Shown here: positions 1,563 to 28,095 of the stretch, piece by piece
Layout: each line of letters opens with the position of its first letter
Position numbering within the stretch: the first letter of the stretch is position 1
NCBI GenBank assembly: GCA_024689085.1
Contig: JAILDT010000068.1
Span: 1 to 40,616, forward strand
From: Clostridia bacterium
Lineage (GTDB): Bacteria > Bacillota > Clostridia > Peptostreptococcales > Anaerovoracaceae
Direction: 5' to 3'
Length of the DNA: 40,616 nt
The notes under the pieces: model-generated
The model's database searches: none
The model's input: only the letters and a program-made list of their open reading frames with translations
What the model was told of the DNA's origin: nothing
Position numbers and translations under genes: made by a program

Positions 1563-2546
1563 TTAGCCTATTTTCCCTTCGTCAATCAGTTTCGCCAGTT
1601 CTTTCGCAAAGTATGTAATGTACATGCCTGCTCCTGCACGGAACGCACCGATGGCCATCTCGCTGATGATTCTTTCTTCATCGATCCAGCCATTCTGTGC
1701 CGCTGCCTTGACCATGGAGTATTCCCCGCTGACGCTGTAAGTCGCCACCGGAATGTTGGTCGCGCTGACGACGCGCTCCAGCAGATCGTAGAAGGCCATT
1801 GCCGGCTTCACGATGAGGAAATCCGTTCCTTCCTCCACGTCCAGCAGCGCTTCCTTCATGGCTTCTCTGCCATTGTGGTAATCCATCTGGTAGCTCTTTC
1901 TGTCGCCGAAGTGCGGTGCGGAATCCGCCGCGTCACGGAACGGTCCGTAGAATGCCGACGCGAATTTGACTGCATAGGACATAATCGGTGTATTGATGAA
2001 TCCGTCCTCATCCAGTTTCTCACGAATCGCGGCAACGTGTCCGTCCATCATGTCGGACGGCGCAACGATGTCCGCGCCTGCTTCCGCCTGAGAACTTGCG
2101 ATCTGTGCCAGCATCTTCAGTGTCTTATCATTATCTACGTACTCTCCGTCGAGAATACCGCAGTGCCCATGGGACGTGTATTCGCACATGCAGACGTCCG
2201 CGATGTAGAGCATGTCCGGAAATTCCTTTTTGCCTTCTCTGAGCGCCCTCTGTACGATGCCGTCGTGAGCGTAGGCCTGGCTGCCGCATTCATCCTTATG
2301 CTCCGGAATACCGAACATCAGAATGTTGTTGACGCCTAGGTTTGCCGCCTCTTCCAATGCGTACGGCAACTGATCCACGCTGTAGCGGTACTGACCCGGC
2401 ATGGACGGGATCTCCTCCTTGATGCCTGTACCGTCAATGGCGAAAATCGGATAGATGAGCGAGGATTTGTCCACCCTCGTTTCTCTGACCATCTTTCGCA
2501 TGGCTTCCGTTGTACGTAATCTTCTCGGTCTTACTTTCAGTTCCAT
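1563..2546 (-). CDS. hemB: Porphobilinogen synthase (5-aminolevulinate dehydratase)
   Basis: HemB condenses two 5-aminolevulinate molecules to porphobilinogen in the cytosol, the first common tetrapyrrole step. The 327-residue length is normal. Visible motifs are the cysteine-rich metal site DVCMCEYTSHGHCG, the segment ADIVAPSDMMDG, and the two Schiff-base lysine regions around SYAVKFASAFYGPF and FLIVKPAMAFYD. The three cysteines suggest the zinc-dependent type. The ATG at 2544-2546 is chosen because GGAGG lies eight bases upstream; an in-frame GTG five codons earlier overlaps that ribosome site and is unlikely to start. It lies 18 bases after cobA/hemD in the same operon. hemA and hemL, which make its substrate, are not in this window. 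Confidence 0.97.
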   Translation of the reverse strand: MELKVRPRRLRTTEAMRKMVRETRVDKSSLIYPIFAIDGTGIKEEIPSMPGQYRYSVDQLPYALEEAANLGVNNILMFGIPEHKDECGSQAYAHDGIVQRALREGKKEFPDMLYIADVCMCEYTSHGHCGILDGEYVDNDKTLKMLAQIASSQAEAGADIVAPSDMMDGHVAAIREKLDEDGFINTPIMSYAVKFASAFYGPFRDAADSAPHFGDRKSYQMDYHNGREAMKEALLDVEEGTDFLIVKPAMAFYDLLERVVSATNIPVATYSVSGEYSMVKAAAQNGWIDEERIISEMAIGAFRAGAGMYITYFAKELAKLIDEGKIG

Positions 2547-2564
2547 TCTATCTTCCTCCACTTT

Positions 2565-4067
2565 CTAGTGCTTTCGCATATCTATCACAAGCTGTGTGAG
2601 GCTGTCCATGGTTGCCTCCTCAGCCATAAAGGTCTTCATTCCGTAGCTGTCCGCCGCAGCTCTCGTCTGCTTGCCGATGCAGGCCGCTCTGACAAGACGG
2701 AAGTCCAGTTCCGGATTTCTGGTGACGAATCCCCGCACCGTCGACGCGCTGGTGAATACTGCGCAGTCGATTTTGTCTGCCTCGAAGAGAGCCGCTTCAT
2801 CCACGAGATCCTGCGCCGCATCGATGGTGTCATAGGTTGCGATATCTGTAACGCCCGCGCCGGACTTCGTCAGCGCCGCCACGAGTTCTTCGTTTCCCAG
2901 TGCCGCCCGCGGAATCAGAATCTGATTGCCTTCCCCGACGAGTTCCGCCAGCTCTCTGCCCAATGTTTTCCCATCGTAGATGGATGGTACAAAATCAACA
3001 AGCAGGTGCCGGTTCGACAGTTCCTTCTTCGTTCCTGTACCGATTGCCGCGATCTTCACGCCTGCCAGAGAGCGTACGTCCCTGCCGGCCTTCCGAAGCA
3101 CATCGAAGAACACCCGCACGCCCGTCGGACTGGTGAACACAATCCACGTATACGTGCTGATCTTGTCCAGAGCCGCTTCCAGTTCGCTCTGATCTTCCCG
3201 GGCTTTCGTTTCGATGGACGGCAGTTCCAGCACTTCCGCGCCCAGCTTCCGCAGGCGCGCCGCCATGCCGGAAATCATACCGCGCGGACGTGTCACGATG
3301 ACTTTGCTTCCCGCCAGCGGCAGTTTCTCATACCAGGCGAACGCATCTGCCAGACTGCAGACCTTGCCCACGATGATGATTGCCGGCGTTTCGATGCCCT
3401 GGCGTTTTACCTCTTCCTCCAGGGTACCAACCGTAGCGACAACGCGCTTCTGCCCTGCTGTGGTTCCCTGCTGCAGCACGGCAGCCGGCATATCCGGATC
3501 CATACCTGCCTGCAGGAGTCCGCCGCAGATGTACGGCAGCCTCGCAATGCCCATGAGGAACACCAGGGTTCCTTCTGTGCGAACCAGCGCCTCGTAATCG
3601 ATGTCATCATCGGAACCTTTTCTCTTATGCCCGGTGATGATGTGCAGGGACGATGTGTAATCCCTGTGGGTGACCGGAATGCCGTTATAAGCCGGCACCG
3701 CGATCGGCGACGTCACGCCCGGCACTACCTCATAAGGCACGCCCTGTTCTGCCAGCAGTTCCAGCTCCTCGCCGCCTCTTCCGAAGAGGAACGGATCGCC
3801 GCCCTTGAGACGGACCACCTTCTTGCCTTTCAGCGCTTCTTCTAAAAGCACCTTGTCGATCTGCTCCTGCGGCATGGTGTGGTTGCCCGACCGCTTGCCG
3901 ACGCTGATGGTCTCCGCCCCTTCCGGGAACAGGGAAAACAGCGCGTCTCCAATGAGCGCGTCGTAGACGATGATGTCTGCTTCTCTGATTGTCTCGATTG
4001 CCTTGACAGTGAGCAGTCCCAGATCACCTGGACCTGCGCCGACCAGCCAGACTTTTCCTGTAGTCAT
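2565..4067 (-). CDS. cobA-hemD: Fused uroporphyrinogen-III methyltransferase / uroporphyrinogen-III synthase
   Basis: A 500-residue two-domain enzyme. Residues 1-240 are the SUMT domain, which methylates uroporphyrinogen III at C2 and C7 to give precorrin-2; visible motifs are VGAGPGD, VRLKGGDPFLFGRGGEE and the GVTSPIAVPAYNGIPVTHR region. Residues about 250-500 are the HemD domain (VIVTRPRG, IVFTSPTGV, AVFTSASTV), which closes hydroxymethylbilane to uroporphyrinogen III. The fusion is common in Bacillota and couples ring closure to the branch toward siroheme and cobalamin. Its ATG overlaps the hemC stop as TAATG, so translation is probably coupled. It is downstream of the cbiL riboswitch. Confidence 0.97.
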   Translation of the reverse strand: MTTGKVWLVGAGPGDLGLLTVKAIETIREADIIVYDALIGDALFSLFPEGAETISVGKRSGNHTMPQEQIDKVLLEEALKGKKVVRLKGGDPFLFGRGGEELELLAEQGVPYEVVPGVTSPIAVPAYNGIPVTHRDYTSSLHIITGHKRKGSDDDIDYEALVRTEGTLVFLMGIARLPYICGGLLQAGMDPDMPAAVLQQGTTAGQKRVVATVGTLEEEVKRQGIETPAIIIVGKVCSLADAFAWYEKLPLAGSKVIVTRPRGMISGMAARLRKLGAEVLELPSIETKAREDQSELEAALDKISTYTWIVFTSPTGVRVFFDVLRKAGRDVRSLAGVKIAAIGTGTKKELSNRHLLVDFVPSIYDGKTLGRELAELVGEGNQILIPRAALGNEELVAALTKSGAGVTDIATYDTIDAAQDLVDEAALFEADKIDCAVFTSASTVRGFVTRNPELDFRLVRAACIGKQTRAAADSYGMKTFMAEEATMDSLTQLVIDMRKH

Positions 4068-4942
4068 TATTCGTAGCGCCCTTTCATTGTCTTTGCCAGT
4101 TCAATACCGAGTTCTTCCGCCATGTACGGGCTGCCGGTCATGGACTCTCTGTGCCATTTGCCGGTCGCCTCGTCATAGTACAGGCCCTCGATGGTCATCT
4201 TATCTTCGCCGCAAACTGCAAAAGCAGCAATCGGCGACGAACAGCCGCCGTCGAGCCATTTGACAAAGGCCCGCTCCGCCCGCACTTCTCGCTCTGTATT
4301 CACATCGTTGTACCCGAAGGCCCAACCGTAATCTCCGTCCTTTCTTCCCTGTACAGCCAGGACGCCCTGTCCCGCCGCCGGGAGGATCTCGGACGGTTCA
4401 AAATATTTGTAGATTCTGTCTTCCAGACCGAGCCGGATCAGTCCCGCCGCAGCCAGCACCAGCGCGCCGTACTGCCCTTCATCGAGCTTTTTCAGACGCG
4501 TCTGCACATTGCCCCTGACACTCTCCACCTTCGCCTGGGGATACAGTTTCTCGATTTGAATCCGTCTGCGGAAGCTGGAACTTCCAATCGGTTTGCTGAA
4601 ATCAATCTCTGTTGCGCCTTCCGGCAGTACCAGGACGTCCCGCGGATCCTCGCGTTCCGAAAATGCGATGATCGGCAGTTCCTCCGGCAGCTCCATCGGC
4701 ATGTCTTTCAGGGAATGCACGGAAATGTCGCTGCGCCCTTCCAGAAGCGCATGATCCAGTTCTTTGACGAAGAGGCCTTTGCCGCCGATCTTGTCCAGGG
4801 TTTTATCAAGAATCTTATCTCCTGTGGTCTTCATTTTGACCAGTTCATACTTGATGCCCAGACTGGTCAGATAGTCCCCGACGATTTTACTCTGGATGAC
4901 GGCGAGTTTACTCTCTCTTGTGCCGATTCTTATGGTCTTCAT
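4067..4942 (-). CDS. hemC: Porphobilinogen deaminase (hydroxymethylbilane synthase)
   Basis: HemC polymerises four porphobilinogens to hydroxymethylbilane. The 291-residue protein starts MKTIRIGTRESKLAV, a typical substrate-binding start. The catalytic aspartate is in HSLKDMP (Asp80), the arginines of SSFRRRIQI and RGNVQTRL are present, and Cys234 in DGGCSSPIAA is the attachment site of the dipyrromethane cofactor. Length is slightly short but all domains are present. The start overlaps the sirC stop as ATGA, and the stop overlaps the cobA-hemD start, so the three genes form one translation-coupled unit. Confidence 0.97.
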   Translation of the reverse strand: MKTIRIGTRESKLAVIQSKIVGDYLTSLGIKYELVKMKTTGDKILDKTLDKIGGKGLFVKELDHALLEGRSDISVHSLKDMPMELPEELPIIAFSEREDPRDVLVLPEGATEIDFSKPIGSSSFRRRIQIEKLYPQAKVESVRGNVQTRLKKLDEGQYGALVLAAAGLIRLGLEDRIYKYFEPSEILPAAGQGVLAVQGRKDGDYGWAFGYNDVNTEREVRAERAFVKWLDGGCSSPIAAFAVCGEDKMTIEGLYYDEATGKWHRESMTGSPYMAEELGIELAKTMKGRYE

Positions 4943-5409
4943 AGTATTCCTTCCTCCGTCAGTATCTGCTGGATGCGCTCGCGCACCCTGCGTGCTTTCC
5001 TATGATCATCGCCAGATGCGCTGACGCCGATGACTGTCTCCCCCTGGCGCACGATGCCCGGGAAGTAGAAGTCGCAGAGTTCCCTGTCGCTGGCGTTGTT
5101 GACCGGAATTCCTTTCTTCCGGCATGCCGCCGCGATCTGCGCGTTCAGTTCTTTGTCGTCAGTAGCCGCGAAAACAATATCACGGCCTTCGAGGTCTTCC
5201 ATTTCGAATTCCCGCATGATCCAGCTGGCGTTCCCATCTTCCACGAGAGCGAGAATGCTGCCATCTCCCTCCGGCGCCACGACGGTGATGCACTCCGTAA
5301 ACGGCTGCAGGACCGCGATCCTTCTGGTTGCAATCGTTCCTCCTCCTACAAAAAGGATGTCTTTGCCGCTCAGATCCATGTAAAGCGGAAAAAATGGTTT
5401 CTTACTCAC
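4939..5409 (-). CDS. sirC: Precorrin-2 dehydrogenase (siroheme synthase N-terminal type)
   Basis: A 156-residue single-domain protein that oxidises precorrin-2 to sirohydrochlorin with NAD, supplying the substrate of CbiK. The dinucleotide-binding motif FVGGGTIATRR lies near residues 20-30, followed by the Rossmann strands (ITVVAPEG, DIVFAATDD) and the dimerisation segment NNASDRELCDFYFPGIV. It lacks a ferrochelatase or methyltransferase domain, so it is not a full CysG. It starts at GTG with AGGAGG eight bases upstream; this ribosome site lies inside the Lys/Arg-rich last codons of the upstream gene, and the GTGA overlap indicates coupling. Confidence 0.93.
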   Translation of the reverse strand: MSKKPFFPLYMDLSGKDILFVGGGTIATRRIAVLQPFTECITVVAPEGDGSILALVEDGNASWIMREFEMEDLEGRDIVFAATDDKELNAQIAAACRKKGIPVNNASDRELCDFYFPGIVRQGETVIGVSASGDDHRKARRVRERIQQILTEEGIL

Positions 5410-6530
5410 TGCTTTTTCCTCCTCTTCAGGACCAGATTCAGGATTCCGCCCACGATGATGATGAGGAGCGCGATATAGATGACGCGCTTGGCCGCTTCCT
5501 GCGGCACCTTCGTCACGGAACCAATAGTGTCCTTGTAAAAAGTCAGTTCGTATTCGATCTCCACTGGGTCTCCCATAGCCGTCGTATCGGCAATGACGGG
5601 AATCGGCTGATCGAATACCGCGACCGGTATGGTGAACGTGGAGTTTCCCCCATCCGTTGATTCATTTTCGTATTTCACACCGGCAATCTTCATGTAATCG
5701 TAGTGGGAACTGCTCCACAGGAGCCTGGCATACGCCTTTCCCCCTTTGACGATGAACCAGGTCGGCGAACTGACCGACGCTCTCCCGGAACCGCCCGTCA
5801 TATTGACTTCGACGGAGTACGTATCGTCCTCCATGTCCACGTCGGCAGGAATCAGATAGTTCACGGCGTTCCCTGTCTGTTCCGCCGTCTGGTTGCTGCT
5901 CTGATTCTGACTCTCTTCCTTGCCCTGATTCTCATCGTACTGTTCCACGGCTTTATCGATGAGGTCGTAGTCCGGCAGTTTGATCTTCAGTGCGCCTTCC
6001 GGCAGGCTGGAGGCATCGATAAGAACGTCACGGTCGTACCATTGCTTCTCCTTCTTGCTGAAGGCCGCGCAGGCAATCGGCGCATTCAGAGCCTCGACTG
6101 GAATGGTAAAACTGCCTCTGTAATCTTTCTCCTCCGCGAAGATATAATCCTCTTTCGGTGCTTTTGCGGCGTCCGTCGCCTTGCCCATGTACACGCATTC
6201 GTAGCTGGTGCTGTCGATGGTCATGACGGCTTCCATCTTCTTGCCCTTGACGGTCAGATGGCAGGAATAGATGCTGAAGAAACTGGAGCTGCTCTCCATG
6301 TCCGCTTCGTACTCGCCGTTTTTGACGCTGTTGCCGTAGATCGGCGTCATACCGTACTTGCCGACGTCCTTGGTCTCTGCTGTCTCAGCACTTGAGGCCA
6401 CGTCTTCGTAACCCTCGGCAGCGTAAGTATCTGCCGGGCAGAAAACAGTCAGCGACACAGCAAGAACCGCGGCGAAAAAGATTCCCGCGATGCTTCTCTG
6501 GATTGACTTGTGTACTCTGCATTCTGCCAT
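5406..6530 (-). CDS. Membrane-anchored two-domain NEAT-like exported protein
   Basis: A 374-residue surface protein. Residues 1-38 look like a signal peptide. Domain 1 (about 60-175) contains LTVKGKKMEAVMTI, FTIPVEALNAPI and a WYDRDVLID segment. A Gln/Asn/Ser-rich linker spans 195-220. Domain 2 (about 222-345) contains GGSGRASVSSPTWFIVKGGKAY (two parts), LLWSSSHYDYMKIAGVKY, FTIPVAVFDQPIPV and ADTTAMGDPVEIEYELTF. A membrane helix (350-367) and KRRKKQ tail anchor it. The domain style resembles iron-transport-associated (NEAT) beta-sandwiches, but heme or corrinoid binding is inference. The same two domains occur in the lipoprotein at 11620-12426. It starts 13 bases after cytosolic cbiK with AAGGA seven bases before ATG, so metal or tetrapyrrole capture is the likeliest role. 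Confidence 0.72.
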   Translation of the reverse strand: MAECRVHKSIQRSIAGIFFAAVLAVSLTVFCPADTYAAEGYEDVASSAETAETKDVGKYGMTPIYGNSVKNGEYEADMESSSSFFSIYSCHLTVKGKKMEAVMTIDSTSYECVYMGKATDAAKAPKEDYIFAEEKDYRGSFTIPVEALNAPIACAAFSKKEKQWYDRDVLIDASSLPEGALKIKLPDYDLIDKAVEQYDENQGKEESQNQSSNQTAEQTGNAVNYLIPADVDMEDDTYSVEVNMTGGSGRASVSSPTWFIVKGGKAYARLLWSSSHYDYMKIAGVKYENESTDGGNSTFTIPVAVFDQPIPVIADTTAMGDPVEIEYELTFYKDTIGSVTKVPQEAAKRVIYIALLIIIVGGILNLVLKRRKKQ

Positions 6531-6543
6531 TGCTGTTTCCTTG

Positions 6544-7320
6544 TTATATGTTTTCCGCGTCTGCGGCGTGTTTCGCGAACAGTTCCCGGATTTCTTCGTG
6601 TTCTCCCAGTCCCTTCAGGATGACCTCTGTCTGATATCCATCCGCCTCCAGACGGTTCTTCCAGGAGTCCGGGCTGCCGCCTGCAAGATCGTTAATTGCG
6701 TGGTCTCCCGCCACGATCATGAGAGGCGCCAGAACAACGTCTCTGTATCCTGACGCTGCAAGTTTCGCCCTGGCCTCTTCGAAGGTCGGCGTGCCTTCCA
6801 CTGTACCGACAAAAACGCAGTCTGATGCTTTTGCGAAAGCATCCTGCAGCTGTCCGTAAACCGGCACCGGGTGCTTGTCCGATCCATGTCCCATGAGCAT
6901 CAGGGCTTTGCTGTCTGCATCGCCCAGACACAGCTGCGGCATGAGCCGCGCCACGGTTTCCCTGTCCACTTCCGTAAAGAGCAGCGGCCGCCCGACAGCG
7001 ATGCGTTCGAACTGTCCCGCGCTGTCTCTGACAATCTCCATCAGCCGCTGGTTCTCGTATCCATCTGACAAATGGGTCGGCTGCACAATGACATCCTTGA
7101 TCCCCTCCGCCGCCAGCTTTCCGAGCGCCTCCTCCGGTGTATCCACAATCAGGCCTTCATTCTTTGCAACTTTCTTGATGATGAAGTTGCTCGTCCAGGC
7201 GCGGCGCACCACTCTGTCCGGGAAACGCTCCGCCAGTTTCTGTTCGATGGCGCCGATGGTGCGTTCCCGCGTTTCCGGGTATGAAGTTCCGAAGCTCACG
7301 ACGAGCAGTGCCTTATCCAT
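6544..7320 (-). CDS. cbiK: Cytosolic sirohydrochlorin cobaltochelatase
   Basis: CbiK inserts cobalt into sirohydrochlorin, the committing step of anaerobic cobalamin synthesis. The 258-residue protein has no signal sequence, starts MDKALLVVSFGTSYPETRE, and carries the metal-binding histidines in MLMGHGSDKHP (His145) and VAGDHAINDLAG (His207), the positions known to bind cobalt in the Salmonella enzyme. The VQPTHLSDGYE and VGTVEGTPTFEEA segments are also typical. It is two bases from the ABC-2 permease and 13 bases before the NEAT-like gene. A second, exported member of the family is encoded at 10312-11523. Confidence 0.96.
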   Translation of the reverse strand: MDKALLVVSFGTSYPETRERTIGAIEQKLAERFPDRVVRRAWTSNFIIKKVAKNEGLIVDTPEEALGKLAAEGIKDVIVQPTHLSDGYENQRLMEIVRDSAGQFERIAVGRPLLFTEVDRETVARLMPQLCLGDADSKALMLMGHGSDKHPVPVYGQLQDAFAKASDCVFVGTVEGTPTFEEARAKLAASGYRDVVLAPLMIVAGDHAINDLAGGSPDSWKNRLEADGYQTEVILKGLGEHEEIRELFAKHAADAENI

Positions 7321-7322
7321 AT

Positions 7323-8054
7323 CTACAAATTCTTTTTCTTATATACAAAAGCAACGGAAATCGCCGAGAAGATCGCCAGATAAACCAGCAGCACAATCCA
7401 TCCGAAGACTCCCGTCGAGCCTCCCGCCGATACACTTCTGATCATCTCGCAGGCCTGAGACAGAGGCAGCAGTTCCACCACCTGACGGATGCCCATCGGC
7501 ATCTGGTCTGTTGAGAAGAAGGTATTGCACAGGAAGGACATCGGCATAATGATGTACGACGTGAAACGCGGCGCATCCGTGTAACTCTTTGCCAGGAACG
7601 ACAGCACGAGGGCGATGGTCGAAAAGACCAGGCCGTTCAGAAACATCACCAGGAAGGACCATCCATTGAAGGTCAGATCCGCCGCGATTGGCAGCGTGAT
7701 CAGCATGATGATGCCTGCCGCATACATCCCGCGCAGGCTGCCGCCGATGACCTGTCCCAGGATGAACTGCCAGAGCGGTGTCGGCGATACCATGACCTGA
7801 TCCAACGCCTTTTCATAGAGTCGCTGGACGCTCATGTTCTGCGCCACCGCGCTGAAGCTGCCGGTCATCGTCGACATAGCCACAATGCCCGGCACCAGAA
7901 AGTTCAGATACGGCTCGCCGTGGGACGTGGTCTGGATTCCGAGTCCGAACACGATAAGATACATCAGCGGCGTGATTGTGGCCGCTAATGTGATCTTGTA
8001 GAAGTCCCTCCGGAACTCTCTCCACTTTTCCCACAAAACTGCGATGATTCCCAT
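7323..8054 (-). CDS. ABC-2 type transporter permease
   Basis: A 243-residue membrane protein with about six helices, of the ABC-2 (NodJ/DrrB-like) exporter type. The first cytoplasmic segment WREFRRDFYKITLAATITPLMYL, the LVPGIVAMS turn and the conserved late segment around PMSFLCNTFFSTDQMP, in which the FFS-x-x-MP core is characteristic, are visible. Together with the ATPase upstream it would form an exporter. Its placement between cbiL and cbiK under a cobalamin riboswitch is not standard for a cobalamin operon. The substrate is unknown; a metal chelator, tetrapyrrole or modified lipid are all possible. The ribosome site is weak, AAAGG eleven bases before ATG. Confidence 0.85.
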   Translation of the reverse strand: MGIIAVLWEKWREFRRDFYKITLAATITPLMYLIVFGLGIQTTSHGEPYLNFLVPGIVAMSTMTGSFSAVAQNMSVQRLYEKALDQVMVSPTPLWQFILGQVIGGSLRGMYAAGIIMLITLPIAADLTFNGWSFLVMFLNGLVFSTIALVLSFLAKSYTDAPRFTSYIIMPMSFLCNTFFSTDQMPMGIRQVVELLPLSQACEMIRSVSAGGSTGVFGWIVLLVYLAIFSAISVAFVYKKKNL

Positions 8055-8070
8055 ACGTACTGATGCCTTT

Positions 8071-8093
8071 GCTTCTATTTGCTTCTATTTGCT
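8071..8093. repeat. 10-bp tandem duplication at ATPase stop codon
   Basis: The decamer GCTTCTATTT occurs twice in a row (8071-8080, 8081-8090), followed by GCT. On the minus strand this spans the TAG stop of the ATPase and part of the gap before the permease. Confidence 0.8.
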
Positions 8094-8927
8094 CCCAAGT
8101 CCTCTGCCGATCCGGTAGATGAAGACATCTTCCAGAGTCGTGTTCCGCAGCGATGCATCCTTGTCGGAGCTGCTGAGGTATTCAATGGCTTCCTCCCTGC
8201 TGCGGAAGTGGGAGGAATGCAGCGTTTCGTCCGCTGTCTCATCCACGGTATACGGACCAAGCTCATTGATGAGATTGTCCGGCGTATCTACGGTGTTCAG
8301 TTTCCCCTTGTCGATGAGCGCCACGCGCTCGCAGAGGGACTGCGCCTCCTCAATGTAGTGTGTCGTCAGAAGGATGGTAATGCCCTCCCCGTGGAGCTGC
8401 CGCAGCAGGTTCCACATCTGACGTCTGGAGATGGCATCCATGCCCGCCGTCGGTTCGTCCAGCAGCAGAATCTGCGGCTCCGTCATGAGCGCACGGCAGA
8501 TCATGAGCTTCCGCTTCATGCCGCCCGACAGATGTCTGACCACCCGGTGTCTGTATTCCAGAAGTCCTGCGAACTCCAGCAGTTCGTCACTCTTCTGGCG
8601 GATGACCTTCTTCGGCAGATAGTAGAGTCTTCCCTGATACTCCATGACCTCGTCGATGGTCATATCCTGACGCATGGAAAACTCCTGTGTGATGACGCTC
8701 AGCTTGCTCTTCGCAGCGGATGCTTTCCTGTCCAGTTTCTGTCCGTCGATGAAAATCTGGCCTTCCGTGGGCAGCAGAACAGTGGAGAGCATGCTTATGG
8801 TCGTAGTCTTGCCCGCACCGTTTGGCCCGAGCAGACCGAAGAACTCTCCCGTCTCTATGGTCATGTTCAGATGATCCACTGCCGTGAAGTCACCGAATTT
8901 TTTTGTGATATCCTTTAACTCGATCAT
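8085..8927 (-). CDS. ABC transporter ATP-binding protein (exporter type)
   Basis: A 280-residue ATPase. Walker A GPNGAGKT is at residues 34-41, the Q-loop at QEF (81-83), the signature LSGGMKRK at 133-140 and Walker B ILLLDEPTAG at 153-162, followed by LTTHYIEEAQ. The LSGGMKRK signature and the C-terminal extension (about residues 225-280) are typical of drug- or lipid-export ATPases paired with ABC-2 permeases. It begins 12 bases after the cbiL stop with no clear ribosome site, suggesting dependence on upstream translation. A 10-bp direct repeat covers its stop codon. The partner is the permease just downstream. Confidence 0.92.
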   Translation of the reverse strand: MIELKDITKKFGDFTAVDHLNMTIETGEFFGLLGPNGAGKTTTISMLSTVLLPTEGQIFIDGQKLDRKASAAKSKLSVITQEFSMRQDMTIDEVMEYQGRLYYLPKKVIRQKSDELLEFAGLLEYRHRVVRHLSGGMKRKLMICRALMTEPQILLLDEPTAGMDAISRRQMWNLLRQLHGEGITILLTTHYIEEAQSLCERVALIDKGKLNTVDTPDNLINELGPYTVDETADETLHSSHFRSREEAIEYLSSSDKDASLRNTTLEDVFIYRIGRGLGSK

Positions 8928-8939
8928 TGGTTTCGGCTG

Positions 8940-9638
8940 TTACAGATCCCTTTCATCTTCCTTCGCGATAATCAGTGAGAAATACCCTGCTTCATCCGGA
9001 ATCTCATCTACGCCCCTGTATACTTTCTCATTTGGCATGCCGCAGTTCTCCACAACATTGACATCCCGTCCGCTTTTTCTCAGTATTTCCTTGACCTCCG
9101 CCATGTGGCTTCCGGACTTCATCAGCACGTAGTTGCCCGGCAGGCTCAGATCGTCTCCCAGTTTATGGAGCGCCGGCATGATATGCAGAGGCTCATTCCA
9201 TTCGCAGAGCGGAATGCCCACTCTGGCTGCCGCAGCACAGAAGGACGTGATGCCCGGCACCAGTTCTGTTTCATAACCGTCCTCTTCCATGATCGCCTGC
9301 AAATAGGTGAAGGTGCAGTAGACCGTGGAGTCCCCCAGTGTCAGATAGACGACATTCTTTCCCTCGTCCAGATACTTCTCGATGATCTCCGCGCCCGCTT
9401 TGTGCTGCCTGCGGATCTCATCCTTGTCCATCTTCATCGGCATGTACACCGGAACCAGTTCCTTGTCCGCCAGCTCCGGCACAGCCGCGTACGCGATCTG
9501 ATATGCGACCGTCTCCTTCGGTTCTTTGCCCGGGAAACAGAATACATCGTTTTCTTTGATGAGTTCTACTGCTCGCAGCGTCATCAGTTTCGGATCTCCC
9601 GGACCTACGCCGACGCCGTATGCCTTACCCTTTGCCAT
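8940..9638 (-). CDS. cbiL: Cobalt-factor II / precorrin-2 C20-methyltransferase
   Basis: CbiL adds a methyl group at C20 of cobalt-factor II using S-adenosylmethionine. The 232-residue protein shows the SAM-dependent tetrapyrrole methylase motifs GVGVGPGDPKLMTLRA, a LTLGDSTVY(C) loop and ELVPGITSFCAAAARVGIPL. The ATG at 9636-9638 is preferred because GAGG is seven bases upstream; an ATG two codons earlier sits only one base from that site. It is the first gene after the minus-strand cobalamin riboswitch and head of the ten-gene operon ending with the DUF819 gene. Confidence 0.95.
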   Translation of the reverse strand: MAKGKAYGVGVGPGDPKLMTLRAVELIKENDVFCFPGKEPKETVAYQIAYAAVPELADKELVPVYMPMKMDKDEIRRQHKAGAEIIEKYLDEGKNVVYLTLGDSTVYCTFTYLQAIMEEDGYETELVPGITSFCAAAARVGIPLCEWNEPLHIMPALHKLGDDLSLPGNYVLMKSGSHMAEVKEILRKSGRDVNVVENCGMPNEKVYRGVDEIPDEAGYFSLIIAKEDERDL

Positions 9639-9668
9639 TTCCATTCCTCACTTCTTCTTAAACACGAC

Positions 9669-9699
9669 AAAAAACATCGTCCTACCTCAGAAGACGACT
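9669..9699 (-). terminator. Riboswitch terminator before cbiL
   Basis: On the minus strand a short stem (arms around 9693-9698 and 9676-9681) is followed by six U residues (9669-9674). It lies between the cobalamin aptamer and the cbiL ribosome site, so corrinoid binding is expected to favour premature termination. The stem is only about 6 bp, so it may be helped by aptamer contacts. Confidence 0.6.
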
Positions 9700-9860
9700 A
9701 TTGCTACTGACAGTTTCCCGACTTGATCCTTATAACCTCAGCGGACGCCTTCCCAGTTTGCCCAGTGGCTGTAATGCTTTGTTACCTGCCCGCCTCGTAG
9801 ATGTCACGGTTGCTGAGACACAGTGCCGGGTTCTCACCGGCTTCCAGTATGCCAGAACAG
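9700..9860 (-). ncRNA. Cobalamin riboswitch upstream of cbiL
   Basis: Read on the minus strand, the leader contains GGAAGCCGGTGAGAACCCGGC, split by the usual P3 elements, then CACTGTG, the B12-box type core GCCACTG (9763-9769) and GGGAAGGCG. This is the conserved order of cobalamin aptamers. A consensus promoter lies just upstream and a terminator just downstream, giving OFF regulation by adenosylcobalamin or a related corrinoid for the cbiL-to-DUF819 operon. Confidence 0.93.
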
Positions 9861-9873
9861 CTTTCTGCGTACT

Positions 9874-9902
9874 ATCATATAGTGCGGTAAGGGTTCTGTC
9901 AA
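9874..9902 (-). promoter_or_regulatory. Promoter of the cbiL operon
   Basis: Minus-strand -35 TTGACA (9897-9902), 17-base spacer, -10 TATGAT (9874-9879). Transcription would begin near 9867, just before the aptamer. Confidence 0.85.
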
Positions 9903-9907
9903 CCTGA

Positions 9908-9920
9908 CCCCCTAGGGGGG
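9908..9920. promoter_or_regulatory. CCCCCTAGGGGGG palindrome between divergent promoters
   Basis: A perfect CCCCC-TA-GGGGG inverted repeat lies between the minus-strand -35 (ending 9902) and the plus-strand -35 (starting 9938), followed by ATACGTCCCC. G/C tracts flanked by A/T are the known recognition pattern of CsoR/RcnR-family metal sensors. Operator function is inferred; no such regulator gene is in the window. Confidence 0.4.
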
Positions 9921-9937
9921 ATACGTCCCCTTCCCAG

Positions 9938-9966
9938 TTGATATGCTCCTGTTTTCATGTTATAAT
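9938..9966 (+). promoter_or_regulatory. Promoter of the extracellular chelatase operon
   Basis: Plus-strand -35 TTGATA (9938-9943), 17-base spacer, perfect -10 TATAAT (9961-9966). Transcription would start near 9973, before the plus-strand aptamer. Confidence 0.85.
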
Positions 9967-9984
9967 ACTGCCGAATACAAATAC

Positions 9985-10150
9985 TGACAGGTGCTGAAGC
10001 TTCGGCTTCAGATAATAGGGAAACAGGTGTAAATCCTGCGCGAACTCGTCACTGTAATCGGATGGCTTTTCGCCACTGTGCCACTGGGGAAACCTGGGAA
10101 GGCGGCGGCAGAGCAATGATCCGTAAGTCAGGAAACCTGCCTGTCTTTGA
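9985..10150 (+). ncRNA. Cobalamin riboswitch upstream of the lipoprotein chelatase
   Basis: The leader contains GGGAAACAGGTGTAAATCCTG, separated into the usual conserved blocks, then TCACTGTAATC, the core GCCACTG (around 10079), GGGAAGGCGG and the 3' consensus AGTCAGGAAACCTGCCTG (10126-10143). This is the clearest of the three aptamers in the window. It controls the two lipoprotein genes and is transcribed divergently from the cbiL riboswitch. Confidence 0.95.
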
Positions 10151-10152
10151 AT

Positions 10153-10266
10153 CGAAGCGTTGTAAGCGCTTCGGGCCACGAGTAACTGGCGGAACATAAC
10201 AACCTACTTGATTATAGCTTGAACACGAAATGTCAGAAGGTCTTTGCTCCGTTTAGCGAAGGCCTT
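10153..10266 (+). promoter_or_regulatory. Expression platform of the plus-strand riboswitch
   Basis: Two hairpins follow the aptamer: CGAAGCG/CGCTTCG (10153-10159 with 10167-10173) and a 12-bp stem with two G-U pairs (10237-10248 with 10255-10266, loop CCGTTT). The second is followed by TTTGTATT, a weak U-tract, so it may be an inefficient terminator. The ribosome site AAGGAGGT lies about 30 bases further on and is not sequestered by either stem. The mechanism is not certain. Confidence 0.5.
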
Positions 10267-10311
10267 TGTATTCGAATCAAGTTATTTTTATTATCTAAGG
10301 AGGTTTTTGTT

Positions 10312-11523
10312 ATGAAAAATCTTAGAAAATTCATTGCTTTGGCGCTGTCACTGGTCATGGCGCTGGGAATGATGCTGATGGTCACAGGCTGCGGTGAATC
10401 AGGAGAATCAGAAGAACCTGCAGCATCAGGTGATCCAGTAGCAGAATGTGCAGCATTGATCGAGGCCATTCAGGTTCAGGAGAGAACCGATGAGACCGAT
10501 GCGCAGTGCGAAGCTGCCAAGGCTGCATACGATGCGCTGACTGATGAGCAGAAGGAAGAGAACGAGGACGTATTCGATTACTTCGGACGCGACACTGGCG
10601 ACGCTTCCGCTGACGATCCGCTCAACGGCGATGAAATCGGCGAAAACGAACTGCTCGTAGTAAGCTTCGGTACGTCATTCAACGACAGCAGAGCGACCGA
10701 CATCGGCGGAATCGAAAAGGCTCTGCAGGAAGCTTATCCTGACTGGTCAGTCAGAAGAGCATTCACTGCTCAGATCATCATCAACCACATCCAGGCTCGT
10801 GATGGCGAGAAAATCGACAACATGCAGCAGGCTCTGGATCGTGCAGTTGCCAACGAAGTCAAGAACTTGGTTGTACAGCCGACACACCTGATGCACGGCG
10901 CTGAGTATGACGAACTGGTTGGTGTTCTCGACCAGTACAAAGACAAATTTGAATCCGTAGAAATCGCTGAGCCACTCCTCGGTGAAGTCGGTGCAGACGC
11001 ATCCGTCATCAACGAAGATAAGGCAAAGGCTGCAGAAGCGATGGTTGCAGAAGCTGTTTCCGTTTCCGATTATGACTCACTCGACGCCATGAAGGAAGAC
11101 GGCACTGCTCTCGTATTCATGGGACACGGCACTTCACACGAAGCGAACGTAACTTATGATCAGATGCAGACTCAGATGGGCGAGCTCGGATATGATAACG
11201 TATTCGTAGGAACCGTTGAAGGCAACCCTCCTGACACTGCACTCCCTGCAGTAAAGGAAGCTGTTGAAAAAGCGGGCTACACCAAGGTCATTCTCCGTCC
11301 GATGATGGTAGTCGCCGGCGACCATGCTAACAACGACATGGCAGGCGACTGGGGCGATGCTCTGATCAACGGCGGTGAGTTTGAAGTCGAAGGTGCTGAT
11401 GCTCCTGTAGACCTCGGTGAAGGCTTTGGTGAGGAAAACGTAACCAGCCAGATTGAAGGTCTGGGAAGAATCGCTGACATTCAGAAGATGTACGTAGAGC
11501 ACACTGGTGCAGTGATCAAATAA
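10312..11523 (+). CDS. cbiK: Extracellular lipoprotein CbiK-like cobaltochelatase
   Basis: A 403-residue lipoprotein with an N-terminal signal and lipobox VTGC (Cys27). Residues 42-92 form a small helical, FIVAR-like segment (ETDAQCEAAKAAYDALTDEQ). Residues 110-403 are a complete CbiK-type chelatase: LLVVSFGTSFNDSRATD, VVQPTHLMHGAEY, FMGHGTSHEANV (His272) and VVAGDHANNDMAG (His338). Both metal-ligand histidines are kept, so it is not a dead copy. The start is set by AAGGAGGT seven bases before ATG 10312; upstream in-frame codons belong to the leader. It is controlled by a cobalamin riboswitch and paired with a NEAT-like lipoprotein. Periplasmic CbiK with bound heme is known in Desulfovibrio; cobalt loading, metal removal or tetrapyrrole binding outside the cell are all possible here. 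Confidence 0.9.
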   Translation: MKNLRKFIALALSLVMALGMMLMVTGCGESGESEEPAASGDPVAECAALIEAIQVQERTDETDAQCEAAKAAYDALTDEQKEENEDVFDYFGRDTGDASADDPLNGDEIGENELLVVSFGTSFNDSRATDIGGIEKALQEAYPDWSVRRAFTAQIIINHIQARDGEKIDNMQQALDRAVANEVKNLVVQPTHLMHGAEYDELVGVLDQYKDKFESVEIAEPLLGEVGADASVINEDKAKAAEAMVAEAVSVSDYDSLDAMKEDGTALVFMGHGTSHEANVTYDQMQTQMGELGYDNVFVGTVEGNPPDTALPAVKEAVEKAGYTKVILRPMMVVAGDHANNDMAGDWGDALINGGEFEVEGADAPVDLGEGFGEENVTSQIEGLGRIADIQKMYVEHTGAVIK

Positions 11524-11565
11524 TAGCGAACCTCTTGCAGAGGACAATTGCAGTAATTAATGTGT

Positions 11566-11598
11566 GGAGCGGGCGCGAAGTTCTTTCGCTCTCGCTCC
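11566..11598 (+). promoter_or_regulatory. Intercistronic hairpin between the two lipoprotein genes
   Basis: Arms 11566-11579 and 11585-11598 pair over 14 positions with one G-U and one mismatch, loop GTTCT. There is no following U-tract, so it is more likely an RNA-stability or expression-ratio element than a terminator. Confidence 0.5.
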
Positions 11599-11619
11599 TG
11601 CTATATTAAGGAAGAGAAG

Positions 11620-12426
11620 ATGAAAAAAACATTATTGGCAATGCTGGCTGTACTTCTTATGGCAGCCTTCACACTCACAGGATGCGGCGGGTCATCAGAA
11701 GAAGCAACCGCAGATCCTGGAATTCCTGATGGAACATACGTGGCCACCTTCACGACGGACAGCCCGATGTTCCATGTAAGCGAAGCAAACAACGACAAAG
11801 GCATTCTTACCGTTAAAGACGGAAAGATGATGATTCACGTCAGCCTGCAGTCGAAAAAAATAGTAAACCTCTATTACGGTCTGGCAGAGGACGCTCAGAA
11901 GGACGGCGCCGAGCTGATCGAACCGACGACGGATGAGGTTACCTACAGCGACGGCTATGTGGATGAGGTGTATGGATTCGATATTCCTGTACCTGCCCTC
12001 GATGAAGAGTTCGATGTTGCTCTGATTGGAACGCACGGCAACTGGTACGACCACAAGGTCAAAGTTTCCGATCCCGTCGAAGGTGATGACATCCACGCCG
12101 GCACTGCCATCGATCTGGAAGACGGTGAGTATCAGGTTGATGTTACCAAAGAAGGCGGTACGGGCAAGGCATCCATCGACAGCCCTGCCAAGCTAGTCGT
12201 GGCAGATGGTCAGGCTACGCTGACAGTCGGCTGGTCCAGCGAACACTACGACTACATGATCGTAGACGGCGAGAAGTACGAGCCGGTCAACACAGAAGGT
12301 AATTCTGTATTTGAGATTCCGGTCAAGGTGATGGGCGAGCCGTTCAAGGTCATTGCAGACACGACGGCCATGAGCGAACCGCACGAGATCGAGTATACGC
12401 TGACACTGACACTGGTGGAGAATTAA
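11620..12426 (+). CDS. Lipoprotein with two NEAT-like domains
   Basis: A 268-residue lipoprotein: signal peptide with lipobox LTGC (Cys22). Domain 1 (about 35-152) has LTVKDGKMMIHVSL, VYGFDIPVPALDEEF and NWYDHKVKV. Domain 2 (about 165-266) has GGTGKASIDSPAKLVV, VGWSSEHYDYMIVDGEKY, FEIPVKVMGEPFKV and ADTTAMSEPHEIEYTLTL. Both domains match those of the membrane-anchored protein at 5406-6530. The domains resemble iron-transport-associated (NEAT) folds, but ligand binding is inferred. The ATG at 11620 follows AAGGAAGAG; the open frame upstream is intergenic. It is the second gene of the riboswitch-controlled lipoprotein operon and probably hands a ligand to, or takes one from, the chelatase. Confidence 0.75.
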   Translation: MKKTLLAMLAVLLMAAFTLTGCGGSSEEATADPGIPDGTYVATFTTDSPMFHVSEANNDKGILTVKDGKMMIHVSLQSKKIVNLYYGLAEDAQKDGAELIEPTTDEVTYSDGYVDEVYGFDIPVPALDEEFDVALIGTHGNWYDHKVKVSDPVEGDDIHAGTAIDLEDGEYQVDVTKEGGTGKASIDSPAKLVVADGQATLTVGWSSEHYDYMIVDGEKYEPVNTEGNSVFEIPVKVMGEPFKVIADTTAMSEPHEIEYTLTLTLVEN

Positions 12427-13049: not shown

Positions 13050-14159
13050 CTATCTCCTTTCAAGTTTCCCGGCCGCCTCCGCTGCCGCAATCAACTCGCG
13101 AATCCGGGCGTTCGTATCGCCGATCGGAAACTCCGTCACGATGACCCGGTCGCATTTTTCAATCGCTTCGGTTGCTTTTGCAAAAGCTTCCTCGCCGATG
13201 TTCTCAAAAGCCGGTGTCGTGATCACCTCTGCCGCCAGGAGGCGCGCCAGCTGATAGTCGATATCATTCTCTGCGAGCACGCCCGCGATGAACGGGGTGT
13301 CCTCCTTCTGCAGCTTCCGGAAGATCGGAACGCCGCTGCCGCCCGATGAGAGGACCAGCACCTTCGGTGCATTCCCCGCCGGCGCCGGCAGTTCGATGCT
13401 GCCCAGCAGCGGATCGAAATAACCGTTATCGATGGAGTACAGTTCCCGGATCATTTCCTCTTCGAAGATTTCCTCAGGCCGCCCATACCGATAGATGCGG
13501 TCGCCTTTCACGCAGATGATCTTATCAGAGACCTTCTCTGCCAGATCGATTTCATGAAGGGACATGATGACTGTAATGTCCTTCTTCTTCGCCATATTTC
13601 GCAATATGGACAGGAGCTCCAGTTTGTACCGGACGTCCAGGAAGGACGTCGGTTCATCCAGAACGATGATTTCCGGATCCTGACAAATGGCGCGGGCCAA
13701 CAGCACACGCTGCTTTTGCCCATCGCTGATGGCATTAAAATCCTTCGGACCGAATTCCGTTGCGTTGACCGCCGCCATGGCCTCATCGACCATCTTCTCA
13801 TCTTCTTCCGTCAGCAGTCCCAACTTGCCTGTGTACGGATATCTGCCGCTGGCGACAATGTCGTAACAGGTCATGAGCTCGGCTTTCAAGCGCTCCGTCA
13901 AAACGACTGCCATCTTCTGCGAGACATCCTTAGATGTCATCTTATGGAGATCCTTTTCCTCGAATATGACTTTACCGCCGATCAGCGCCAGCTGCCGGGT
14001 GATACTCTTAAGTATGGTGGATTTGCCGGCTCCGTTCGGACCGATCAGTGTGACGATCTCGCCCTTGCCGATGTCGATACATATGTCCTTTATGATGGCC
14101 TTGCCGTTATAACCGACGGCCAGATTGTCCATGCTGATGTAGGCATCTTGCTTGTTCAT
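13050..14159 (-). CDS. btuD: Corrinoid/iron-siderophore ABC ATPase with C-terminal extension
   Basis: A 369-residue ATPase. Walker A GPNGAGKS is at 40-47, Walker B IIVLDEPTS at 164-172, and the signature reads ISDGQKQR (144-151), a variant of LSGGQ. Residues about 262-369 are an extra domain not found in plain BtuD/FecE proteins: VLVLSSGGSGVPIFRKL, then GVLAENDIDYQLARLLAAE and a TEFPIGDTNARIREL end. It probably powers the BtuCF importer encoded upstream. The ATG at 14159 overlaps the permease stop as TAATG and has GGAGG eight bases upstream; a longer open frame into the permease gene is rejected. Confidence 0.92.
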   Translation of the reverse strand: MNKQDAYISMDNLAVGYNGKAIIKDICIDIGKGEIVTLIGPNGAGKSTILKSITRQLALIGGKVIFEEKDLHKMTSKDVSQKMAVVLTERLKAELMTCYDIVASGRYPYTGKLGLLTEEDEKMVDEAMAAVNATEFGPKDFNAISDGQKQRVLLARAICQDPEIIVLDEPTSFLDVRYKLELLSILRNMAKKKDITVIMSLHEIDLAEKVSDKIICVKGDRIYRYGRPEEIFEEEMIRELYSIDNGYFDPLLGSIELPAPAGNAPKVLVLSSGGSGVPIFRKLQKEDTPFIAGVLAENDIDYQLARLLAAEVITTPAFENIGEEAFAKATEAIEKCDRVIVTEFPIGDTNARIRELIAAAEAAGKLERR

Positions 14160-15238
14160 TACAATTGCCTCCTTCTGCTGACCATCATGTAGATTACGAC
14201 CGGCGCGCCGAAGACTGCCGTGACGGTGCTGATATTCAGTTCCTGCGGCGCGAAGGCGAGCCTTGCGATAACATCGCAGATCATACAGAACACGCCGCCG
14301 CCCAGCATACATCCCGGAATGACAACCAGCGGCTTCGCGGTTCCCATAGCTCCCTTGATCAGGAACGGAACGGCAATGCCGACGAATGAGATCGGACCTG
14401 CATACGCAGTCACACAGGCTGTGAGCAGGCTCGATAAAGTAATCAGGGCGATCTTGAACCACTTGATATTGACACCCATGCTCGCCGCATAGTTCTGCCC
14501 CATCTGGAAGGCTCCGATCGGCTTACTCATGAGCATGGTAAGCACGAATCCGAGGCCTACAACGATCAGGCACACGCCCACGTTGCTCCAGCTCATGCCG
14601 GAGAAGCTGCCCATAGACCAGACGTGCAGGTTCGCGATATCCGAGTCCTCCGCGAAGGTGATGATGAATTCCGTCACCGCATTGCAGATGTAACCCACCA
14701 TGATACCGGCGACCAGGAGCGCCGCCATGTTGCGGATCCGATAGGAGACCGCCACGATGAACATCGTCGCAATTAGAGATCCGATGAAGGCTGCGATGAT
14801 CAGCGTGGCTGATGACACGTGCAGCCCGTTCTGCATGAACACAATCATGGCGATAGCGACCACCATCTTGGCGCCTGATGAAATACCCAGAACGTACGGT
14901 CCTGCGATCGGATTCTCGAAGAATGTCTGCAGCAGGAATCCCGCCAGTGCCAATGCTCCTCCCAGGAGCATCGAGGCGATGATTCTCGGCAGGCGAATCG
15001 TCCATATGATATCCAGGACCTTATCCGGCCCTTCCCGCAGGAAGATTGCCCTGGCGATGTCACCGATGCCGATGTGCACGTTGCCTGAGTTGATGTTGAC
15101 CACGATCGTTACCGCAAACGCAGCAATCATGACAGCAAAAACAATCACGCACCGCGTACGGCGCCGGAAATTCGCTTCATGGTAACCGCCCAGCGTAGGC
15201 CCATTGTAATTTGTTGTTTTTGCTTCTGTCTTACTCAT
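14159..15238 (-). CDS. btuC: FecCD/BtuC-type ABC transporter permease
   Basis: A 359-residue membrane protein with about ten helices. It has the typical RLPRIIASMLLGGALALAG (first half) and GPISFVGIAVPFLIKG regions, and the QTFFENPIAGPYVLGISSGA loop of the FecCD/BtuC family. These form the channel for vitamin B12 or ferric siderophores; the operon context favours corrinoids. Its start overlaps the btuF stop as ATGA and its stop overlaps the btuD start. Confidence 0.93.
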   Translation of the reverse strand: MSKTEAKTTNYNGPTLGGYHEANFRRRTRCVIVFAVMIAAFAVTIVVNINSGNVHIGIGDIARAIFLREGPDKVLDIIWTIRLPRIIASMLLGGALALAGFLLQTFFENPIAGPYVLGISSGAKMVVAIAMIVFMQNGLHVSSATLIIAAFIGSLIATMFIVAVSYRIRNMAALLVAGIMVGYICNAVTEFIITFAEDSDIANLHVWSMGSFSGMSWSNVGVCLIVVGLGFVLTMLMSKPIGAFQMGQNYAASMGVNIKWFKIALITLSSLLTACVTAYAGPISFVGIAVPFLIKGAMGTAKPLVVIPGCMLGGGVFCMICDVIARLAFAPQELNISTVTAVFGAPVVIYMMVSRRRQL

Positions 15239-27879: not shown

Positions 27880-28060
27880 GAAGACTAACTCAACCAATCT
27901 GACAGGTCTACCGACTTAACCTTTATAACCTACTGAGGCGCCTTCCCAGAGCTCTGGCTCCAGTGACTGCATAATGCGTGCCCGTTCGTCGATATCACGG
28001 TTGCTGAGACACAGTGCCGGATTTTCACCGGCTTCCGAATATTGTCCAGATTTATGTTAT
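27880..28060 (-). ncRNA. Cobalamin riboswitch upstream of cbiD
   Basis: On the minus strand the leader has GGAAGCCGGTGAAAATCCGGC, split into conserved blocks, then CACTGTG, a slightly divergent core AGTCACTGG (around 27959-27967) and GGGAAGGCG. It matches the cobalamin aptamer order and the cbiL riboswitch closely in its 5' half. It shares an 18-base identical segment with the cbiL leader (27868-27885 and 9678-9695). Confidence 0.93.
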
Positions 28061-28095
28061 TGATTTGTGTTCGGGTCCTCTCCGAACCCACTGAT

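Follow-up and report, generated by a model that had tools for sequence, protein, structure and literature searches.

Salmonella CbiK (structures 1qgo and 2xwp) is a cytosolic sirohydrochlorin cobaltochelatase, and Desulfovibrio vulgaris, which makes its own tetrapyrroles, has an exported protein of the same fold in its periplasm (CbiK-P, 2xvx), for which we know of no NEAT partner or riboswitch-controlled relay. In the iron-regulated Isd relay, from which no chelatase is known, the NEAT proteins IsdA, IsdB, IsdC and IsdH hand heme to the IsdE-F importer. Here we analyse a contig stretch of 40,616 nt from a Clostridia bacterium (JAILDT010000068.1; this whole stretch is called the window below), a cobalamin biosynthesis locus in which an extracellular lipoprotein of the CbiK type is encoded next to a second lipoprotein, which carries two NEAT domains (N1 and N2). 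We favour, with some reserve, the reading that this pair, on the plus strand, forms the outer end of an uptake relay, controlled by a B12 riboswitch, whose cargo is a tetrapyrrole from which the corrin ring is built.

Two precedents from the literature bear on this reading. The Gram-negative Porphyromonas gingivalis has a CbiK-like surface lipoprotein, IhtB/FetB (9b86), with an ATP-binding cassette (ABC) importer and a TonB receptor, for which removal of iron from heme was proposed; the accessible part of that paper mentions no NEAT domain (PMC10913741). Likewise, tetrapyrrole precursor salvagers, mostly Firmicutes and often host-associated, keep the corrin-ring genes and have lost those of the front end of the pathway, and the portion of the study available to us mentions neither a precursor importer nor a surface chelatase (Shelton et al., PMC6461909). 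We found no description of a system joining chelatase, NEAT domains and importer in the open-access literature, to which the search was confined, subscription papers lying outside it.

Both proteins of the pair have lipobox cysteines, C27 in the chelatase and C22 in the NEAT protein. Their starts, at 10312 and 11620, are preceded by ribosome-binding sites (AAGGAGG and AAGGAAGAGAAG, respectively), which by eye are not evident at the upstream starts TTG 10219 and ATG 11560 of the open reading frame list. The chelatase comprises the signal and lipobox up to C27, a helical N-domain (ca. residues 29–108) and a class II chelatase core (113–402), and the Pfam CbiK profile spans this whole core (211 bits, cut-off 26.2). 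The first-pass annotation had stated that this protein and a second, cytosolic CbiK in the window both keep their two metal-ligand histidines, and they do: the metal-site residues are H272, H338 and E198 in the lipoprotein and H145, H207 and E89 in the cytosolic copy, exactly the numbers that we take to hold for the Salmonella enzyme. The two copies are 33% identical over 284 residues and fall into separate clades of the CbiK tree described below, so that a recent duplication was rejected. Both remain below the cut-off of 400 bits of the sirohydrochlorin cobaltochelatase equivalog NF047852 (150 bits for the lipoprotein, 234 for the cytosolic copy) and thus neither can be named at the equivalog level.

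From a genome scan for relatives of the lipoprotein chelatase we kept the best 80 of 110 loci, all of which were examined. The metal-site motifs GHG and AGDHA are kept in all 80. Secretion of the chelatase was indicated by a lipobox pattern in 58 of them, by a lipobox recognized by eye in one (L064, where N1 comes first) and by a Sec-like signal seen by eye in 20; the chelatase of L055 is truncated. The structure model of a fused relative from Hespellia (L013), with a predicted local distance difference test (pLDDT) of 85, finds 1qgo, 2xvx and FetB 9b86 as its best structural matches. The family shares with Salmonella CbiK the fold (template modelling score, TM, of 0.93 to the target for a fused relative) and the H, H, E metal residues, but it is secreted, has a helical N-domain in the main clade and is fused to NEAT in 24/80 loci.

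The lipoprotein and a second, membrane-anchored NEAT protein of the window are 33% identical over 276 residues, and Pfam NEAT detects only the second domain of each, below threshold (26.1 and 23.1 bits, respectively, against 32.8); a sequence search of the PDB with the single NEAT protein as query retrieved nothing useful. The AlphaFold model of the lipoprotein, from 50 aligned rows, reached a pLDDT of 89.2 and a predicted TM score (pTM) of 0.60, and its 15 best PDB matches in Foldseek are all NEAT, among them IsdH N2N3 (E 2.6e-7) and IsdX2-NEAT5, with single NEAT domains giving a TM to the target of up to 0.69. A profile of N1 alone matches IsdX2-NEAT5 at E 1.9e-5 and, together, these matches indicate that both domains have the NEAT fold. 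At E ≤ 0.01, NEAT matches were obtained for 9/20 N1 rows and for 37/50 rows of the N1/N2 alignment. N1-type domains also occur in proteins of at least 1000 residues (L016:10218-13220, L044:1190 and L198:9454), repeated in the first two, so that the domain has further uses at the surface.

The loci share a conserved unit, composed of an extracellular CbiK and N1, often with N2 and a BtuF-type binding protein, a FecCD permease and an ATPase, and often close to genes for the corrin ring. In 78/80 loci N1 lies next to the chelatase or is fused to it, and the two misses (L004 and L009) are contigs that end just past the chelatase; our first N1 and N2 profiles merged on iteration and gave the initial domain labels, and rebuilt separate profiles agree on N1 in the 78 loci. 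In the 24 fusions N1 is C-terminal (20), N-terminal (three) or between two chelatase cores (one). The last corresponds to a frame of 931 codons (L045:5881-8673) reading chelatase, N1 and second chelatase, with an unread assembly stretch near its end. N2 lies in one frame with the BtuF-type protein in 20/80 loci, 16 of them with FecCD in the locus, and FecCD is present in 50/80, the remaining loci showing no importer within the fetched stretch. This is the architecture of the Isd relay, where NEAT domains hand a tetrapyrrole to a Peripla_BP_2/FecCD importer, although no chelatase is known from Isd, and B12 riboswitches and linkage to corrin synthesis mark the present loci. The importer ATPase shares an uninterrupted frame with CbiD in 8/80 loci (L028, L036, L040, L043, L050, L057, L058 and L067) and with CobQ in 6/80 (L027, L049, L062, L069, L078 and L080). 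Of the 26 extracellular-CbiK loci scanned, 25 (11/11, 10/10 and 4/5) have a cobalamin riboswitch ahead of the chelatase or of its operon, and the operon start of the miss, L106, may lie outside view.

These loci therefore support the earlier proposal of a single, B12-controlled surface module made up of lipoprotein chelatase and NEAT protein. The proposal had also paired the cytosolic CbiK with the anchored NEAT protein as a matched counterpart, the anchored protein receiving the product. As a general counterpart this pair is not supported: the two genes are adjacent in 7/80 loci (L002-L005, L007, L008 and L055), with the reservation that most of the others may extend too little to judge; the usual downstream partner is instead N2, fused to or beside the BtuF-type protein with FecCD and ATPase.

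We searched 40 of the genomes behind the 80 loci, taking isolates first and then a spread. CbiC, without internal stops, is present in 38/40, CbiL exceeds the cut-off in 29/40 and HemC occurs in 25/40; 14 of the 15 genomes without HemC have CbiC. These 14 thus show the gene content of precursor salvagers, whereas the window genome, with HemB, HemC, CobA-HemD, CysG and a cytosolic CbiK, does not. Searches for CobA, the N-terminal part of CysG and CbiX covered 30 of the genomes, namely all 15 without HemC and 15 of the 25 with it. CobA exceeded the cut-off in exactly the 15 HemC-bearing genomes and in 0/15 of the others, eight of which gave one match each below cut-off (141–165 bits), four mapping on CbiF genes and four unmapped. 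The CysG N-terminal part was above cut-off in the 15 HemC-bearing genomes and in two HemC-less ones (13/15 without), and all the CbiX matches in the 30 genomes coincide with CbiK genes. A second, cytosolic CbiK was found in 20/25 HemC-bearing against 0/15 HemC-less genomes (p = 7.7e-7), with 11 of the 20 cytosolic calls made from the N-terminus and the other nine from frame length; the HemC-less genome G036 has two CbiKs, both in long frames of the extracellular type. Among the HemC-less genomes are two complete Faecalibacterium chromosomes. The first (G016) contains the run lipoprotein CbiK-N1N2-BtuF-FecCD-ATPase/CbiD-CbiL-CbiF-CbiG-CbiH-CbiJ-CbiET-CobB, continuing to CbiC, and the second (G011) the same run without CbiL. 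In all five examined genomes labelled Faecalibacterium (G009, G010, G011, G015 and G016) HemC is absent and the secreted CbiK is the only CbiK.

As a guard against selecting on the answer, we made a second draw of 393 Clostridia genomes, evenly drawn and at least 90% complete, and searched them for CbiK, CbiC and HemC; the two sets overlap at least in one case, since G411 and G014 are apparently one genome, with identical coordinates. A CbiK match was found in 97 genomes, the N-termini of which were all read, with one ambiguous case (G226, without CbiC and matching over half of the profile). An extracellular CbiK is present in 28/393 genomes, all 28 of them with CbiC (background 121/393), and was found in 16/27 genomes with CbiC but not HemC against 12/94 with both (p = 3e-6). 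A second CbiK occurs in 0/16 HemC-less and 8/12 HemC-bearing carriers (p = 1.6e-4), and all eight read as cytosolic. The first-pass annotation held that its reading would fail if the two genes rarely occurred together; N1, with a profile built largely from chelatase-linked domains, was found in 22/28 genomes with extracellular CbiK against 2/365 of the others, where it belongs to proteins of more than 1000 residues, so that this test did not refute the reading. In all 22, N1 either shares the frame of the chelatase or lies no more than ca. 0.5 kb from it. In five of the six extracellular-CbiK genomes without N1, a BtuF-type protein of 470–530 residues adjoins the secreted CbiK. The NEAT-less variant is represented by loci L106, L107, L108, L195 and L197, of which L106-L108 and L195 also have FecCD and ATPase nearby.

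In a tree of the 97 CbiK rows, the main secreted clade contains 48 (support 99/95). The secretion label changes five times on this tree, at least four of them forced by well-supported branches, which rejects or at least weakens a single origin of secretion, bearing in mind that the bootstrap had not settled and that changes may be losses. Secreted copies outside the main clade belong to three HemC-less corrin makers (G059, G124 and G390) and to a genome with HemC (G331); G059 and G124 form a weakly supported group and could have one origin.

Bacteria that lack HemC and CobA and keep the corrin-ring enzymes must import the ring at or after sirohydrochlorin, and an internal cobalt chelatase is needed only if the tetrapyrrole is made inside the cell. 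In the carriers without HemC, the only CbiK-type chelatase found is outside, often heading a corrin operon and accompanied by the NEAT relay and importer. That the examined genomes without the first B12 steps keep only the outside copy suggests the uptake of half-built B12 rings from neighbours. Metal-free factors II and III are released by corrinoid makers, and in this setting a surface cobaltochelatase would make sense. Extracellular metallation and import of an isobacteriochlorin is the simplest account; which ligand is used, that catalysis takes place outside the cell and in what order hand-over proceeds are inferences. The extracellular CbiK would bind an isobacteriochlorin released by neighbours (sirohydrochlorin, i.e. 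factor II, or factor III) and insert Co2+ outside the cell; N1, adjacent or fused to it, would receive the product, and N2, often fused to or beside the BtuF-type protein, would hand it to FecCD and the ATPase, so that the imported cobalt isobacteriochlorin could enter at the CbiL step or beyond. In bacteria that have neither HemC nor CobA the relay would replace the whole front end of the pathway, and in the window organism it would be a supplementary route. For the question of what the module replaces, on which the first-pass annotation held no evidence, the informative point is that HemC and CobA are absent. The observation of that annotation is confirmed and its interpretation is partly supported; the loading of cobalt into an external tetrapyrrole, which it had raised beside metal removal and cobalt capture, is a better fit to the genome evidence than the alternatives. 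In many gut bacteria a cobalt-inserting enzyme seems to sit outside the cell, coupled to proteins resembling heme carriers and to an importer. In all, the module is widespread and B12-regulated, and its distribution points to a ring precursor that enters B12 synthesis from outside the cell.

Several observations weigh against this account, and its weakest joint is the absence of CbiL, an enzyme that import of cobalt-sirohydrochlorin would require. CbiL is below cut-off in 11/40 genomes (G005, G006, G009-G011, G013, G018, G022, G032, G036 and G039), ten of which have CbiC and nine of which lack HemC, so that it is missing in 9/15 HemC-less genomes (six have it) against 2/25 HemC-bearing ones; either the ligand there must be a later one, of the factor III type, or an unrecognised C20-methyltransferase acts. 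In the second draw, 11/27 HemC-less corrin makers have no extracellular CbiK (seven cytosolic, four none), indicating that other routes exist, and 12/94 HemC-bearing corrin makers carry one as well. The CbiK query in that draw was the lipoprotein, so that a divergent cytosolic CbiK could be missed. For the close clade of the lipoprotein chelatase alone, the tie to HemC absence is not significant (4/27 against 7/94, p = 0.26); adding the shorter clade gave 13/27 against 13/94 (p = 3.7e-4), including one genome later found cytosolic (G174). Reading of the N-termini then added G059, G124 and G390 as secreted and, among the last nine, five (G310, G385, G294, G398 and G411) proved secreted, in line with their earlier assignment, three (G067, G200 and G091) appear cytosolic and G226 is the ambiguous case. 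Nor are the counts phylogenetically independent, because four of the 16 HemC-less carriers belong to one genus (g71), the 16 spanning seven families. The usual cargo of such importers is cobamides or siderophores. Finally, FetB/IhtB, a structural match, is described as heme-binding and, in the accessible part of a review (PMC13402209), as inserting manganese into protoporphyrin.

The strongest alternative, although we consider it unlikely, is one of surface capture: secreted CbiK and NEAT proteins, having lost catalysis or making no use of it, would capture complete cobamides or corrinoids at the surface and hand them to a BtuFCD importer, as a Gram-positive analogue of BtuG/BtuH. The riboswitches in 25/26 loci and a BtuF/BtuD-like importer whose ATPase is nearest to the corrinoid type would be expected of such a system. 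It leaves unexplained, however, the corrin-ring genes in genomes without HemC and CobA (CbiC in 14/15, and cbi operons), the lack of a cytosolic CbiK in the same genomes (0/15 and 0/16) and the intact chelatase metal-site motifs in 80/80 loci.

NEAT domains are known heme carriers, and CbiK-P and FetB, the latter annotated as heme-binding, are structural neighbours of the chelatase; the module might acquire iron from heme or porphyrins, with the secreted chelatase stripping the metal, as proposed for IhtB/FetB, and the NEAT domains carrying heme. We think this improbable, given the B12 riboswitch control in 25/26 loci (Fur sites were outside the search) and the constant presence of a corrin gene (28/28 with CbiC). 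In heme-binding NEAT domains the first (axial) tyrosine of the YxxxY motif is the heme ligand. In a single profile alignment, the SSMF motif of N1 aligns with the SMM of NEAT and Y143 with the second tyrosine, and the position of the first is occupied by K in 65/79 rows and by H in 14/79; by eye, N2 has neither tyrosine. A canonical heme site is therefore not evident in N1, judging from this one alignment. Y143 had been taken for the axial tyrosine in an alignment made by eye, which was dropped in view of the profile alignment.

It is more improbable still that no tetrapyrrole takes part and that Co2+ itself is captured outside the cell for uptake, by N1 and the protein of chelatase fold. The CbiK metal site is intact and N1 has M50, H73 and H145 in 79/79 rows of the main clade, but H73 is lost in 8/9 rows of the short clade and in one main-clade row (L113), with H145 replaced by R in six of those nine, and the tie to HemC absence would have no reason. 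FecCD importers, moreover, carry chelates rather than free metal.

That HemC-less genomes are merely losing B12 synthesis, the module being an ordinary transporter beside relic genes, is very improbable, because the cbi operons are open and ordered in a pair of complete genomes as well as across several families and CbiC has no internal stops in 38/40. In favour of decay, CbiL is below cut-off in 11/40 and, in the accessible parts of the respective papers, F. prausnitzii A2-165, a strain that may or may not carry the module, had no measurable B12 (PMC10881866) and was the only one of 15 strains not to grow well without cobalamin (PMC7360928). B12 predictions for F. prausnitzii disagree: as far as the available text goes, A2-165 is a predicted non-producer (PMC10881866), and the species seems to be listed among the B12 producers in an appendix with gene sets that count CbiK (PMC8123684).

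The reading of an imported ring precursor might extend to P. gingivalis. According to the parts of the sources at hand, IhtA is homologous to BtuB and is preceded by a B12 riboswitch (PMC3764172), and the species lacks precorrin-2 synthesis (PMC6461909). Together with the existence of salvagers, this makes Iht a possible Gram-negative counterpart of the module. We put forward, tentatively and as a proposal that could well fail, that HemC-less gut Firmicutes such as Faecalibacterium perform the cobalt insertion of B12 synthesis outside the cell, where isobacteriochlorins leaked by other microbes would be metallated and the complex imported by the NEAT relay as an obligatory first intermediate; secretion would have evolved more than once and Iht would be the Gram-negative form. 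If true, a step of cofactor biosynthesis would be placed outside the cell and B12 predictions for common gut bacteria would change. It would also give the predicted precursor salvagers a concrete uptake machine, resolve how P. gingivalis makes corrins without making precorrin-2, and offer a new reading of Porphyromonas Iht/FetB together with a defined cross-feeding currency in the gut.

In the window, the pair lies back to back with the cbiL...cbiK operon, each under one of two divergent cobalamin riboswitches (Table 1). From its riboswitch, the minus-strand run reads cbiL, ABC-2 ATPase, ABC-2 permease, cytosolic CbiK, anchored NEAT protein, precorrin-2 dehydrogenase, HemC, CobA-HemD and HemB, with CbiK and the anchored protein as fourth and fifth genes of a tightly packed series (gaps of 2–30 bp). 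By eye, the anchored protein begins like a signal peptide and ends in a hydrophobic segment with RRKKQ after it. To the right, also on the minus strand, come the importer ATPase, the FecCD permease and the BtuF-type lipoprotein, with further corrin genes beyond. Pfam, Rfam, residue checks and identities agree with the coordinates, histidines, riboswitches and domain counts first given for both pairs.

Table 1. Positions of the features of the window, with the evidence for each.
Feature	Position	Strand	Evidence
Cobalamin riboswitch, directly before the lipoprotein chelatase/NEAT operon	9972..10158	+	Rfam RF00174, 118.1 bits
Cobalamin riboswitch before cbiL, of the cbiL...cbiK...hem operon	9692..9895	-	Rfam RF00174, 47.6 bits
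Extracellular lipoprotein CbiK-type chelatase	10312..11523	+	Pfam CbiK 211 bits; H272, H338, E198; fold of a relative matches 1qgo, 2xvx, 9b86
Lipoprotein with two NEAT domains; N1 ca. 11716-12078, N2 ca. 12085-12423	11620..12426	+	AlphaFold pLDDT 89; Foldseek NEAT matches; sub-threshold Pfam NEAT on N2
CbiL, cobalt-factor II C20-methyltransferase	8940..9644	-	TIGR01467 194.6 bits, above cut-off
ABC-2 type transporter ATPase (DrrA-like)	8085..8927	-	Pfam ABC_tran; TIGR01188 261.6 bits, below cut-off
ABC-2 type permease	7323..8054	-	Pfam ABC2_membrane
Cytosolic CbiK cobaltochelatase (H145, H207, E89)	6544..7320	-	Pfam CbiK 257 bits; phmmer 1qgo E 1.2e-48
Membrane-anchored two-domain NEAT protein (N1 + N2, C-terminal hydrophobic anchor)	5406..6530	-	33% identity to lipoprotein NEAT; Pfam NEAT 23.1 bits
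Precorrin-2 dehydrogenase (CysG N-terminal type)	4939..5409	-	TIGR01470 114 bits, above cut-off
HemC, hydroxymethylbilane synthase	4067..4942	-	PF01379 match at 4337-4933
CobA-HemD fusion	2565..4067	-	Pfam TP_methylase and HEM4
HemB	1563..2561	-	Pfam ALAD 480.7 bits
BtuF-type substrate-binding lipoprotein; homologues fused to N2 in 20/80 related loci	15235..16404	-	Pfam Peripla_BP_2
FecCD-type importer permease	14159..15238	-	Pfam FecCD 252.5 bits
Importer ATPase, nearest corrinoid type (PRK09536)	13050..14162	-	NF007082 214.9 bits, below cut-off 537

Other elements of the window include a third cobalamin riboswitch (27884-28065, minus strand), upstream of a run of genes with cbiD, and a DUF6506 protein (12492-13046, minus strand; Pfam 90.8 bits) that adjoins the importer genes. 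The two ABC-2 genes, a DrrAB-like pair of the exporter type (7323-8927, minus strand), sit within the cbiL-cbiK run, and both are found again close to cbiL, cbiK or the gene of the secreted chelatase in 10/80 loci (L001-L005, L007, L008, L020, L054 and L055), as well as in L108.

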